From: Tildeniella nuda ZEHNDER 1965/U140
Lineage (GTDB): Bacteria > Cyanobacteriota > Cyanobacteriia > Leptolyngbyales > Leptolyngbyaceae
Assembly: GCA_019358895.1 (NCBI GenBank)
Contig: JAHHIG010000003.1
Coordinates: 124,001-188,000 of the forward strand
Length of the DNA: 64,000 nt
Direction of reading: 5' to 3'
Shown here: positions 11,430 to 59,449 of the stretch, piece after piece
Layout of the letters: each line of letters opens with the position of its first letter
Numbering within the stretch: the stretch's first letter is position 1
The notes under the pieces: model-generated
What the model saw: the letters and a program-made list of their open reading frames with translations, nothing else
Told to the model about the DNA's origin: nothing
Database searches by the model: none
Made by a program: the position numbers and the translations under genes

Positions 11430-11992
11430 ACTGTGACCCCTGTAACAAACGCTATGATAGCGCTTTAAAGTATTTGAATTTTGGGTTTCGAGGGACGAAT
11501 TTGACTAGCGCGTGCTGCTCACCAGCAGTCAAAGACCGAGTTCCCCAAAGTTTGCCCCTTTATAGAGCCTTTACACGGCAACCGTCGTAGATTTTTTGCT
11601 GGAGACACGCTGAAAGCCTGTAAACCCACTGAATTCAACCATTCGCTCAACAATTACTTAATTTTAGCCAATGCTCATTTAGTGAAGTCTCCGTGATTGC
11701 ACTAGGCAACCCGATCGCGCATTGGTTAGCTTACAAACATCATAAATCCTGCTTGAGTAAAACATTTAAGCTCCCAGTTCTGAACCTCCTAGCCCTAAAC
11801 CGTAGCATCCTGCTAAATCAGACGTGAGTTGCCATTAAGCCTAGCCATCTTTTGGGTTCAATCAATCAATGAGCCGCCAATAAAGATTTTAAAGGCAATC
11901 TCTTTTATCTAAATGGATGTGCATCATCGCAAGCTTTAACACGAAACGAGCTGAGAGAGCCAAGCGTGTCTCTCGCTAAGGTCATTGTGATT
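11430..11992. other. Intergenic stretch, nothing recognised
   Basis: About 560 bp between divergent secDF and the PEP-CTERM gene. It is moderately AT-rich and lacks the tandem repeats common elsewhere. No RNA gene, palindrome of note or conserved frame was seen. It should hold two divergent promoters. Confidence 0.5.
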
Positions 11993-12733
11993 ATGTCAAA
12001 CCATCAGCATAGAAACATTAACGTGGTGATGCTTGCTACGCAGAAAGCGATTGCTAAAGTCCTTTTTAAATCTACTGGGGCGGCGATCGTTGGTTTCACC
12101 ACTCTTAGCTTTGCAACAACGATCCAGCCCGCTCATGCCTTTAGCGTTACGTACAATTTTGCGGTGAAGATTAACAGTAATGCTTACGAAACACAGGGCT
12201 TAAGCAAAGGGTCAATTGAGCAAGGAAGCTTTACGTATGATACTGCTGGTTTGAAGCCTTATCCTACTGGTGACAATACTGGCTCAACGGGAATTCGCAG
12301 CGAATATGTCTCTGCTTCACAAGGAAATTTGACCCTTTTATTTAACTTTCTAAACAATATTTATACTGAGAAAAACGACCTGAATTATAGCGGACAGCGG
12401 TACTTTACTGACTATCCAGTTGCACTTTTTGCCAATGGTCAGTTAGTAGGACTCGATTTTCTTGTTGTACCTTCCCAGTTTCAGCCACCCCAAAAGGCGC
12501 TAGGCTTTCGTATTTTTAACAATGATTTTTACGTTGGCGCAACCGATAACAATAACAGTGGAAATCTGGTTGGTGCTGTCACGTACAGCGACACTACTAT
12601 TTTACCGGACGCGCCACTACCTGGCGCTGGTGTCGCAGCGGTTCCTGAACCCTCCGAACTGGGCGGCGCGATCGCTGCTTTTGGTTGCTTGGGCGTTTGG
12701 GCGCTGAAAAAGGTGAAAGGGCAAAAGAAATAG
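11993..12733 (+). CDS. PEP-CTERM sorted exported protein
   Basis: 246 residues from ATG 11993; a GTG nine codons upstream is a possible alternative start. A signal peptide lies at about 20-50, ending ATTIQPAHA before FSVTYNF. The mature domain is beta-rich, with no Cys. The C-terminus has the complete sorting signal: VPEPSE, a hydrophobic helix (IAAFGCLGVWAL) and a basic tail KKVKGQKK. PEP-CTERM proteins are handled by an exosortase, usually with exopolysaccharide production. No exosortase gene lies in this window. Ligand or role unknown. Confidence 0.85.
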   Translation: MSNHQHRNINVVMLATQKAIAKVLFKSTGAAIVGFTTLSFATTIQPAHAFSVTYNFAVKINSNAYETQGLSKGSIEQGSFTYDTAGLKPYPTGDNTGSTGIRSEYVSASQGNLTLLFNFLNNIYTEKNDLNYSGQRYFTDYPVALFANGQLVGLDFLVVPSQFQPPQKALGFRIFNNDFYVGATDNNNSGNLVGAVTYSDTTILPDAPLPGAGVAAVPEPSELGGAIAAFGCLGVWALKKVKGQKK

Positions 12734-57810: not shown

Positions 57811-58360
57811 GGGCACTACCCCGATTCTCTATCCAAGCAGGGCTTAGAGAAGGTTCGCCAGCGCAAACTGGAGCCTCAATTGGAGAAGTTGAGAAAGAAA
57901 CAAGAAGAATTAGAGGAAAAGCAGCAACTTTTACAGAGCATAGAGGAAGTACCCGAAGCCCTCAGAAGTAAAGCCCAGTCCAAAAAGATGAGATCTCTGA
58001 CAAAGGCAATTCAGGAGCTTCAAGATGATCTGGCAAAACCGCGTCCAAAGCTAGACTGCCTACAAAATTCCCTCTTGTTCGATCGTCCCGATCGCCCACT
58101 TTATGAAGGTGTTCCCAATATCTTTGTCGGTGTTCTTCTGGATCTCGATAAACACTTAGTCGTTACTGTTGTAGATACAATGCGCCGTAAAATCCTAGCG
58201 ATTTGGAATGCTAGCAGTATTTCAAAGGAGGGATACGATCTACTACAAAGCTATTTTCACCAGCGGAGAGAAAGGGACACAGGTTCACGACCTACTTCAA
58301 TCATAGTCTGTGCAACCCAGATAAGTGAGTATGATCCGCAAGGATCTAAACGCCTTTAGC
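57811..58360 (+). pseudogene. Cas12k-like remnant (type V-K effector, C-terminal RuvC-I region)
   Basis: The frame GHYPDSLSKQGLEKVRQRKL, a long coiled coil (KLRKKQEELEEKQQLLQ), then FDRPDRPLYEGVPNIFVGVL, LDLDKHLVVTVVDTM and KEGYDLLQSYFHQRRE. I recall the corresponding Cas12k segment as RPSQPLYQG....VGVSLGLEKPATVAVVD....LLNRQRRQQ, so the match covers the start of the RuvC-like domain. The first ~400 codons are missing (a TAA at 57808 precedes the frame), and after the QRRE region the frame soon ends. A CRISPR array follows within 260 bp. Not TnpB: the spacing and RPxRPLYxG motif do not fit. Nonfunctional. Confidence 0.7.
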
Positions 58361-58618
58361 AGAGCAGTTCTTCTGATTTGTTAAGGGTAGGGCTTGGTTC
58401 TCCAAGGTGGCTACGAATTCTTCTCGATATTTTGGCAAACGGGAGCGGGAGTTATATTCCTGGTACCTTTGCCAATTTCTAATTCCTGAGTGGCTGTGGG
58501 TTTCACAATCTCTCTTGTTCACATACCTTTGTACAGAAGGGTAAAGGTGATACGAGAGAGGAGCTTTGCCAAAATAAAGCTTGAAACTGTTACAAATCAA
58601 GGGTTTTAGTTGTCAAGG
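58361..58618. other. Stretch between Cas12k remnant and CRISPR array (expected tracrRNA site)
   Basis: In type V-K loci a tracrRNA gene lies here. I looked for a complement to the repeat (for example GGTCATTGCAAC or CTTTCATTCC) and found none, so the tracrRNA seems lost or displaced. A minus-strand frame of 84 codons covers the stretch but has no recognised domain. The region also serves as a possible leader of the array. Confidence 0.4.
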
Positions 58619-59002
58619 GTTGCAATGACCAATTTGGCGTGAGACGGAATGAAACGCCATTTTTTCTTGACAAAAGAAGAGGCAAAAGAATGTTGCAATG
58701 ACCAACTTGGCGTGAGACGGAATGAAAGTTTTGAGACGTGACACAAATTCAACAGGGCTTCCTGGTTGCAATGACCAATTTGGCGTGAGACCGAATGAAA
58801 GGTCGCCTTTGAATTCCAGCGTCTCGAAACCGATCCCGTCGCAATGACCAATTTAGCGTGGGATGGAATGAAAGGACTAAAACCGTGAATGATGGCTGAA
58901 AGTTCTGGATTAAGTCGCAATGACAAGTTTGGCGTGAGACGGAATGAAAAATGCGTCAGGAAGGAGTATGTATGACTAATCTGGTGTGAGATGGAATGAA
59001 AG
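58619..59002 (+). CRISPR. CRISPR array, six 37-nt repeats, five spacers
   Basis: Repeats at 58619, 58692, 58765, 58838, 58914 and 58966, each 37 nt, begin GTTGCAATGACC (first ones) and end GGAATGAAAG. Repeats 1-3 are nearly identical, 4 and 5 have changes (GTCGCAATGAC), and the last is degenerate (GTATGTATGAC...). Spacers are 36, 36, 36, 39 and 15 nt. Degeneration increases rightward, so the leader is on the left, as the cas12k remnant is. The repeat length and the ends GTT.CAA..ACCA and GAAAG resemble V-K repeats as I remember them. No spacer matches tRNA-Ala in this window by eye. Confidence 0.85.
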
Positions 59003-59100
59003 TCCATGCGGAGATCAATCATGCACACGCAGCGACAGTATCACGTTTGAATTTTGAATAGATAGGACTAATTTCGCTACAATTTTATTGATCGAGAAGG

Positions 59101-59322
59101 ATGAAAGAGGCAGAGGTCTGCAAACTTCTGCACCTACCAGATAAAAGCAGCAGGACAACTAAATTGATAGCTGTCCTGCGCTCAAGGGACAAGCTTGAGC
59201 GCGTGTTGTTTTATAAAGTCAAAAATGCTCTCTCTAGTAAAACCCTATCTCTGAAAGCTTTGCCTATTCTAGGCTCGATCGTTTTTTGTGTCTCGCAAGG
59301 GTCGCTAAACTACGAGAATTAG
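59101..59322 (+). CDS. Small hypothetical protein at the right edge of the island
   Basis: 73 codons (MKEAEVCKLLHLPDKSSRTT...) after a GAGAAGG ribosome-like site. No family recognised. Two perfect hairpins (59150-59179 and 59178-59202) lie inside it, which argues for a structured DNA/RNA element or decayed sequence more than for a gene. Confidence 0.3.
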   Translation: MKEAEVCKLLHLPDKSSRTTKLIAVLRSRDKLERVLFYKVKNALSSKTLSLKALPILGSIVFCVSQGSLNYEN

Positions 59323-59326
59323 CGAC
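59150..59326. repeat. Cluster of three inverted repeats near the right edge of the island
   Basis: GCAGGACA/TGTCCTGC (59150-59157, 59172-59179), GCGCTCAAG/CTTGAGCGC (59178-59186, 59194-59202) and GTCGCTAA/TTAGCGAC (59301-59308, 59319-59326). All arms are perfect. They could be part of a transposon right end, but they do not match the left-end core TTAATGCTTGT. Confidence 0.5.
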
Positions 59327-59386
59327 ATGATCGTGCGAATCGCGATAAGACACTGCTATAGAAGTAGCCAACACGGAAACGCAAAC

Positions 59387-59415
59387 AAAAAGCAGCTAAT
59401 GAATAGCTGCTTTTT
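59387..59415 (-). terminator. Rho-independent terminator of groEL
   Basis: Perfect 12-bp stem AAAAAGCAGCTA/TAGCTGCTTTTT with a 5-nt loop. It gives a T-run in both directions, so it ends transcription of groEL and also read-through from the island. Confidence 0.85.
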
Positions 59416-59449
59416 TATTCGTAAAACGAAGGTTTTTAAAGCGGATGGA

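Follow-up and report, generated by a model that had tools for sequence, protein, structure and literature searches.

Remains of a type V-K CAST, very probably of a tRNA-Cys-homing lineage, beside groEL in Tildeniella nuda ZEHNDER 1965/U140

The 64-kb stretch of DNA analysed here, hereafter the window, contains a fossil of a known kind of CRISPR-guided transposon. We are highly confident that the sequence from position 57823 to about 59344 is a relic, about 1.5 kb in length, of a type V-K CAST from a lineage that homes to tRNA-Cys. It is a relic and not an intact member of its kind. The window is C24:124001-188000 of the host's own 6.08-Mb, 38-contig assembly, which is close to Leptolyngbya and Stenomitos genomes. 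The evidence comes from sequence comparison and consists of the parts that are present, their order, the match of a 17-nt spacer to tRNA-Cys, the PAM beside that match, the spacing in some relatives, and the complementarity between a truncated repeat, R*, and the tracrRNA region; together these point to a lineage that homes at tRNA-Cys. An earlier note, made from the letters of the window, had already proposed a V-K CAST system at this place, and it is backed by a Cas12k fragment, by homology in the tracrRNA region and array leader, by a TnsB-type site and by the homing unit.

In the living element, Cas12k and tracrRNA would use a dedicated short guide, made of R* and the 17-nt spacer and encoded outside the array, to bind tRNA-Cys beside a GTA PAM. 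The transposon would then enter the DNA on the tRNA's 3' side, about 65 nt beyond the PAM, and the spacers of the array would direct movement to other targets. By analogy with the V-K systems that have been studied, the homing guide would be transcribed and used in the same way.

Parts and decay of the relic

Relatives of the element were sought by two routes. Among the 42 genomes of the order, own included, 14 have a match to the Cas12k fragment, four of them a strong one (E <=1.6e-51) when the own locus is set aside, namely G023 (MAG Leptolyngbya sp. Prado105), G037 (Leptolyngbya sp. FACHB-321), G019 and G034 (Stenomitos frigidus ULC18), and a tRNA-Cys gene adjoins the element in each of these four. 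A scan of genome contigs with two peptide patterns, by which diverged relatives would be missed, gave five confirmed loci: those of G023, G037 and G034, and further ones in Microcoleus sp. FACHB-1515 (L117) and MAG PMM_0036 (L120). The features of the relic are collected in Table 1.

Table 1. Features of the V-K CAST relic (positions are those of the window)
Feature	Position	Strand	Remark
cas12k fragment, broken at both ends	57823..58272	+	blastn homology edges 57823, 58272
3' part of tracrRNA region and array leader (putative)	58273..58618	+	blastn 85% to G019 L079 12538-12920
Segment of tracrRNA region able to pair with R* (putative anti-repeat)	58419..58428	+	duplex in relic and 5 relatives
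CRISPR array	58619..59002	+	37-nt repeats starting 58619, 58692, 58765, 58838, 58914, 58966
15-nt spacer	58951..58965	+	tRNA match no better than shuffles
Degenerate leader-distal repeat	58966..59002	+	8/37 mismatches
TACAAT	59078..59083	+	invariant upstream of R* in 5 aligned loci
R*, truncated homing repeat, GATCGAGAAGGATGAAAG	59090..59107	+	resembles 3' end of repeat
Homing (anchor) spacer, 17 nt, AGGCAGAGGTCTGCAAA	59108..59124	+	tRNA-Cys(GCA) match, GTA PAM
TnsB-type end site	59323..59339	+	best window score, both strands: 19.7 vs next 13.3

The 159-aa open frame directly left of the array (57880-58359) matches the PADLOC Cas12k profile PDLC01708 over positions 368-484 of 623 (E 2.4e-21) and shares 69.6% protein identity with the Cas12k of G023. 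The frame is open to 58359 only through run-on into tracrRNA-region sequence. The cas12k gene of a V-K CAST is thus represented by a fragment only, homologous to the near full-profile Cas12k of G023, G034 and G037. Searched with the PADLOC Cas12k profile, the own genome has two matching places: this fragment and, on contig C9, a gene that is unbroken (E 6e-249).

Homology to the G019 locus (L079) ends at 11851 and resumes at 12538, so that 686 nt of L079 are missing at 58272|58273, and with them the stretch of cas12k that encodes the C-terminus, together with the 5' tracrRNA region. Judging by homology and by its complementarity to R*, what follows would be the 3' part, and only that part, of the same-strand tracrRNA that lies between cas12k and array in a V-K CAST. 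Compared with the relatives by blastn, the relic falls into three blocks, at 57823-58272 (cas12k), 58273-58654 (tracrRNA region, leader and first repeat) and 59058-59219 (R* region), and its homology runs in element order over 57823-59219. Could the array instead be an ordinary one that belongs to a different CRISPR type, has decayed at its tail and has no tie to transposition? In the relatives the array is collinear with cas12k, the tracrRNA region and R*, and in the window it sits between the Cas12k fragment and the TnsB-type site, which makes such an origin wholly improbable.

Of the element ends, the relic retains a single TnsB-type site at 59323-59339, scored with a matrix that is sharp by construction, having been built from eight distinct 17-mers chosen by pattern from four element ends. 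The terminal site and the TGTAC terminus are missing, which places the right break near 59344. No TnsB match was found in the 64-kb window at E 1e-3. The Mu-transposase and TniQ profiles had no match near the window either, the silence of TniQ being weak since this profile is also silent on C9. In the own genome the Mu-transposase profile matches on C9 and at C24:370 kb, and the TniQ profile only at C24:373 kb. When L117 1-3730, which spans part of cas12k to the element end, was searched as DNA against the own genome, the only match outside the relic was a cross-match at the C9 end. With cas12k doubly broken, the 5' tracrRNA region and the terminus gone, and no TnsB in the window, the relic cannot move by itself.

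Separately, a further Tn7-like element lies on the same contig at C24:370652-373666, with a TnsB-type open frame of 788 aa and a TniQ open frame of 365 aa.

The CRISPR array and its worn end

Six repeat copies are present at 58619-59002 in the 37-nt V-K register (58618-59001 in another register), so that a CRISPR array with 37-nt repeats stands 3' of cas12k as in a V-K CAST. The repeats start 73, 73, 73, 76 and 52 nt apart and enclose spacers of 36, 36, 36, 39 and 15 nt; the array at this place, with spacers of 36-39 nt and then one of 15, was described in the same terms in the earlier note. In order, the copies differ from the array consensus at 1, 1, 1, 4, 4 and 8 of 37 positions, and the last repeat is indeed degenerate, as had been noticed. 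The best match to the repeat consensus outside the array, on both strands of the 64-kb window, has 15 mismatches; all six repeats are therefore real, the worn last copy included.

Does this end of the array hold the homing unit? It had been proposed that the 15-nt spacer and the degenerate repeat are the relic of such a unit, on the ground that V-K CASTs carry a short-spacer homing unit near the array. The premise agrees with PMC9938897, in which V-K elements carry a truncated repeat and a short spacer; the repeat at the array end is degenerate, and a length of 15 nt is near 17. The proposal itself was to be supported by a match of at least 12 bases to a tRNA gene beside a GTN-like PAM. With the 38 tRNA genes found in the own genome, flanks included, the 15-nt spacer shares an identical run of at most 7 nt, and the 40 nt that follow the array one of at most 10 nt, both short of these 12 bases. 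Compared with the nearest GTN-adjacent protospacer of these 38 tRNA regions, mismatches number 5 for the 15-nt spacer, or 4 when it is moved by one base, and 6-7 for the 17 nt that come directly after the array. Shuffled sequences put through the same test gave mean mismatches of 5.4-6.6, about equal to both, and neither stretch matches a tRNA better than these shuffles. Spacers 1-4 have 6-8 mismatches to GTN-adjacent tRNA protospacers, and the earlier remark that the array has no match to tRNA-Ala is correct and is true as well of all 38 tRNA genes found in the genome.

Other arrays bear on the same question. In five other arrays that were measured the final spacer has 35-41 nt, and a length of 15 nt is peculiar to the relic. 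Most of the five also end in a worn repeat: mismatches of the last repeat to its own array, of 37, are 8 in the relic, 14 in G023, 13 in G019, 13 in the C9 element and 2 in G034, and the 16/37 of G037 are inflated by a one-base shift in the ungapped comparison. In addition, a better unit, R* with a spacer matching tRNA-Cys, is present at 59090-59124. Given this, a homing unit or its relic at the array end is scarcely credible. The simplest reading of the degenerate copy is an ordinary old leader-distal repeat, and the 15-nt spacer most likely arose from one of normal length by the loss of about 21 nt. The worn end of an array resembles a homing unit, and the two can now be told apart.

The array and R* region had no match among 50,697 phage and 72,556 plasmid records, and neither these records nor a search of viral contigs with exact 20-mers of spacers 1-4 gave a phage, plasmid or virus target for the array spacers. 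For spacers 1 to 4 the 20-mers occurred in 0, 0, 0 and 2 viral contigs. The two contigs with spacer 4 carry near-identical stretches of a phage-like gene; the matches stop at the edge of the 20-mer, 16/39 positions differ and a GTN PAM is lacking, and they were set aside as chance. At 58880-58893, spacer 4 also has a 14-nt exact match just upstream of the own tRNA-Cys (L030 1573-1586). This was rejected as a target because the PAM-proximal bases of the spacer are not covered, and is likely to be chance.

The homing unit and its partners

The 17-nt spacer stands directly 3' of R* GATCGAGAAGGATGAAAG and begins 105 nt past the last array repeat. A separate truncated repeat followed by a spacer of about 17 nt that matches a tRNA beside a GTN PAM, as expected of a V-K CAST, is thus found at 59090-59124. 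In the published layout R* is about 12 nt and clearly apart from the array, the anchor spacer is usually 17 nt and the PAM is GTN (PMC9938897 and PMC11406308). The relic spacer matches the tRNA-Cys of G019 at 17/17 positions and that of the own genome at 15/17, with a GTA PAM in both; its mismatches to tRNA-Cys number 1 in G023 and 2 each in the own genome, G034 and G037, again with GTA each time. The own-genome mismatches fall at spacer positions 6-7.

When 17-mers starting at each of 1080 positions (58360-59439) were compared with GTN-adjacent protospacers of the tRNA regions, 59108-59124 was the best. In 20000 shuffles of the R* spacer none had 2 or fewer mismatches and 21 had 3. Shuffles overstate the rarity of the match, and the real background of the window is the fairer control: with the neighbourhood of tRNA-Ala excluded, 19 of about 128,000 window positions have 2 or fewer mismatches, or about 0.15 expected per 1080. 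The match to the own tRNA by itself is therefore not decisive, and it is position and conservation that make the case for a homing unit.

R* with a 17-nt spacer is present in 5/5 relatives with a readable array side, and tRNA-Cys stands beside 4/5. The spacer of L117 is identical to that of the relic, as is that of G019; no tRNA was found on the 10-kb L117 locus. Compared with the tRNA-Cys of their own genomes, the spacers of G019 and G034 match in full, that of G037 has 1 mismatch and that of G023 has 2. The published distance from PAM to element end is 46-82 nt, with one case of 147 (PMC9938897 and PMC11406308). It is 63 nt in G019, 66 in G034 and 65 in the C9 element of the own genome, all within this range, and 121 in G023, which exceeds it; the element end in G037 looks different, with TGTACA 58 nt from the PAM, and by eye no such TnsB sites are seen at its tRNA-proximal end. 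The relic is not at tRNA-Cys, with the only tRNA in the window 10 kb off, and has no element end 46-82 nt from a PAM. Upstream of R*, TACAAT resembles a promoter -10 element, which suggests that the R* unit may have a promoter of its own. Even in a V-K relic as heavily decayed as this one, the homing unit can be read and names the lost attachment site. The term 'tRNA-Cys' was absent from the papers listed in a search of the literature, a set to which the main primary paper did not belong.

R* can pair with a segment of the tracrRNA region, and two compensatory changes count as evidence for this predicted duplex. The segment was picked after the complementarity was seen; in the relic and in each of five relatives a TTTTGGCA-like stretch follows it closely. 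In an alignment of four distinct rows and ten pairs, 95% of the cells are paired and 2 pairs are changed on both sides; if the partner is slid by 1-3 columns, pairing falls to 40-65%. In shuffle controls the covariation score was reached in 16/500 and the number of changed pairs in 353/500, modest results that are due to the few rows (4 distinct) and the split of one subgroup. In 6/6 cases the segment pairs more weakly with the final 23 nt of the array repeats than with R* (-9.2 to -11.7 vs -12.3 to -18.8 kcal/mol, all these energies being without a random control). For repeats taken as a whole, the tracrRNA region offers stronger partners at other places, and so these energies are no proof of a private channel for R*.

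The V-K element on contig C9 of the own genome, which is homed at tRNA-Thr, is a positive control for this reading of the homing unit. On this element (L038, C9:343001-353000) an unbroken Cas12k frame of 665 aa is accompanied by an array of three good repeats and one degenerate repeat (13/37 mismatches) and by a truncated repeat that stands apart and is followed by a 17-nt spacer. The spacer is a 17/17 exact complement within the neighbouring tRNA-Thr(GGT), the PAM is GTA and the element end is 65 nt from the PAM. A TnsB-type frame of 644 aa lies on C9, 30 kb left of the element, and the TniQ profile has no match on C9. The relic resembles the C9 element in having cas12k, an array with a degenerate last repeat, R*, a 17-nt spacer and end sites, with the tRNA adjacent in C9; the latter, however, has another repeat, another tRNA and an unbroken Cas12k, and is not the parent of the relic. 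Likewise, Cas12k, a downstream tracrRNA region and array, a separate R*, a 17-nt anchor spacer, a GTN PAM and a tRNA attachment site are shared with published V-K CASTs (PMC9938897 and PMC11406308), whereas the relic is a fragment off its tRNA and its relatives use tRNA-Cys and have long Cas12k frames. Twelve degenerated Cas12k proteins are mentioned beside 106 complete ones in PMC9938897.

Might the relic still supply a guide in trans? Its R* and spacer are undamaged, and could still yield an RNA that the C9 V-K element takes up as a guide, a dead transposon then giving a living one a second address at tRNA-Cys. Over 9 consecutive base pairs, the 3' end of the relic R* is able to pair with a segment of the C9 tracrRNA region, at -15.7 kcal/mol compared with -17.4 for the C9 R* (no random control). 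However, this C9 segment is only a putative anti-repeat, and a different part of the C9 R* has its partner at another place; the repeats of the relic and C9 have diverged, the own tRNA-Cys differs from the spacer at the two positions given above, and by eye the terminus-like sequence at that tRNA is unlike the C9 end. We regard such use as very improbable; if true, an orphan guide in use would mean guide sharing between transposons.

Relatives and genomic setting

The relatives describe a tRNA-Cys-homing V-K lineage with long Cas12k frames. Stop to stop, these are 862 aa in G023 (L076 4111-6699), 849 aa in G037 (L077 8142-10691) and 832 aa in G034 (L078 6826-9324), and frames of 832-862 aa exceed the 623-position PADLOC profile. 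In G019 cas12k is interrupted by a DDE transposase gene, and homology in L120 stops inside cas12k, with the contig ending 0.7 kb later.

In G023 and G019 TnsB is encoded immediately upstream of cas12k; on the 38-kb stretch of G034 and the 36-kb stretch of G037 none was found. In the published V-K layout tnsB adjoins the opposite element end, unlike the arrangement in G023 and G019. The short TnsB of these two is of V-K type, in open frames of 473 aa (G023, within L076 2689-6699) and 472 aa (G019, within L079 7006-10289). Farther upstream of TnsB both have a large HTH protein, and G019 has a tyrosine integrase as well.

The relic abuts groEL at a break in synteny. In 3/4 same-genus genomes whose locus reaches past groEL on this side, the next gene is a reductase gene, which we take to be an aldo/keto reductase and which in the own genome is on contig C3; groEL and the sequence past its other end are collinear with G034. 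Both a rearrangement and an insertion off the tRNA fit this position of the relic, and L117 suggests that off-tRNA insertion may occur.

A TGTACA located 3' of the own tRNA-Cys (C30; L030 1420-1500) was considered as the element end of the relic and rejected, being unlike the end-site motif by eye. It is 56 nt from the GTA PAM and has different inner motifs. A search of the genome found no second copy of this stretch and one 27-base partial match; it may belong to another Tn7-like element that used the same attachment site.

Two further observations concern the relatives. In Microcoleus sp. FACHB-1515 a second cluster of TnsB-like sites (L117 4490-4590) occurs about 770 nt past the element end and is, by eye, closer in wording to the single site of the relic; beyond it is a TnsB-like gene (L117 6744-8270) with 34% identity to the C9 TnsB. 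Upstream of the G034 Cas12k are MzaD- and MzaE-like defence genes (L078 74-3054), possibly cargo of that element.
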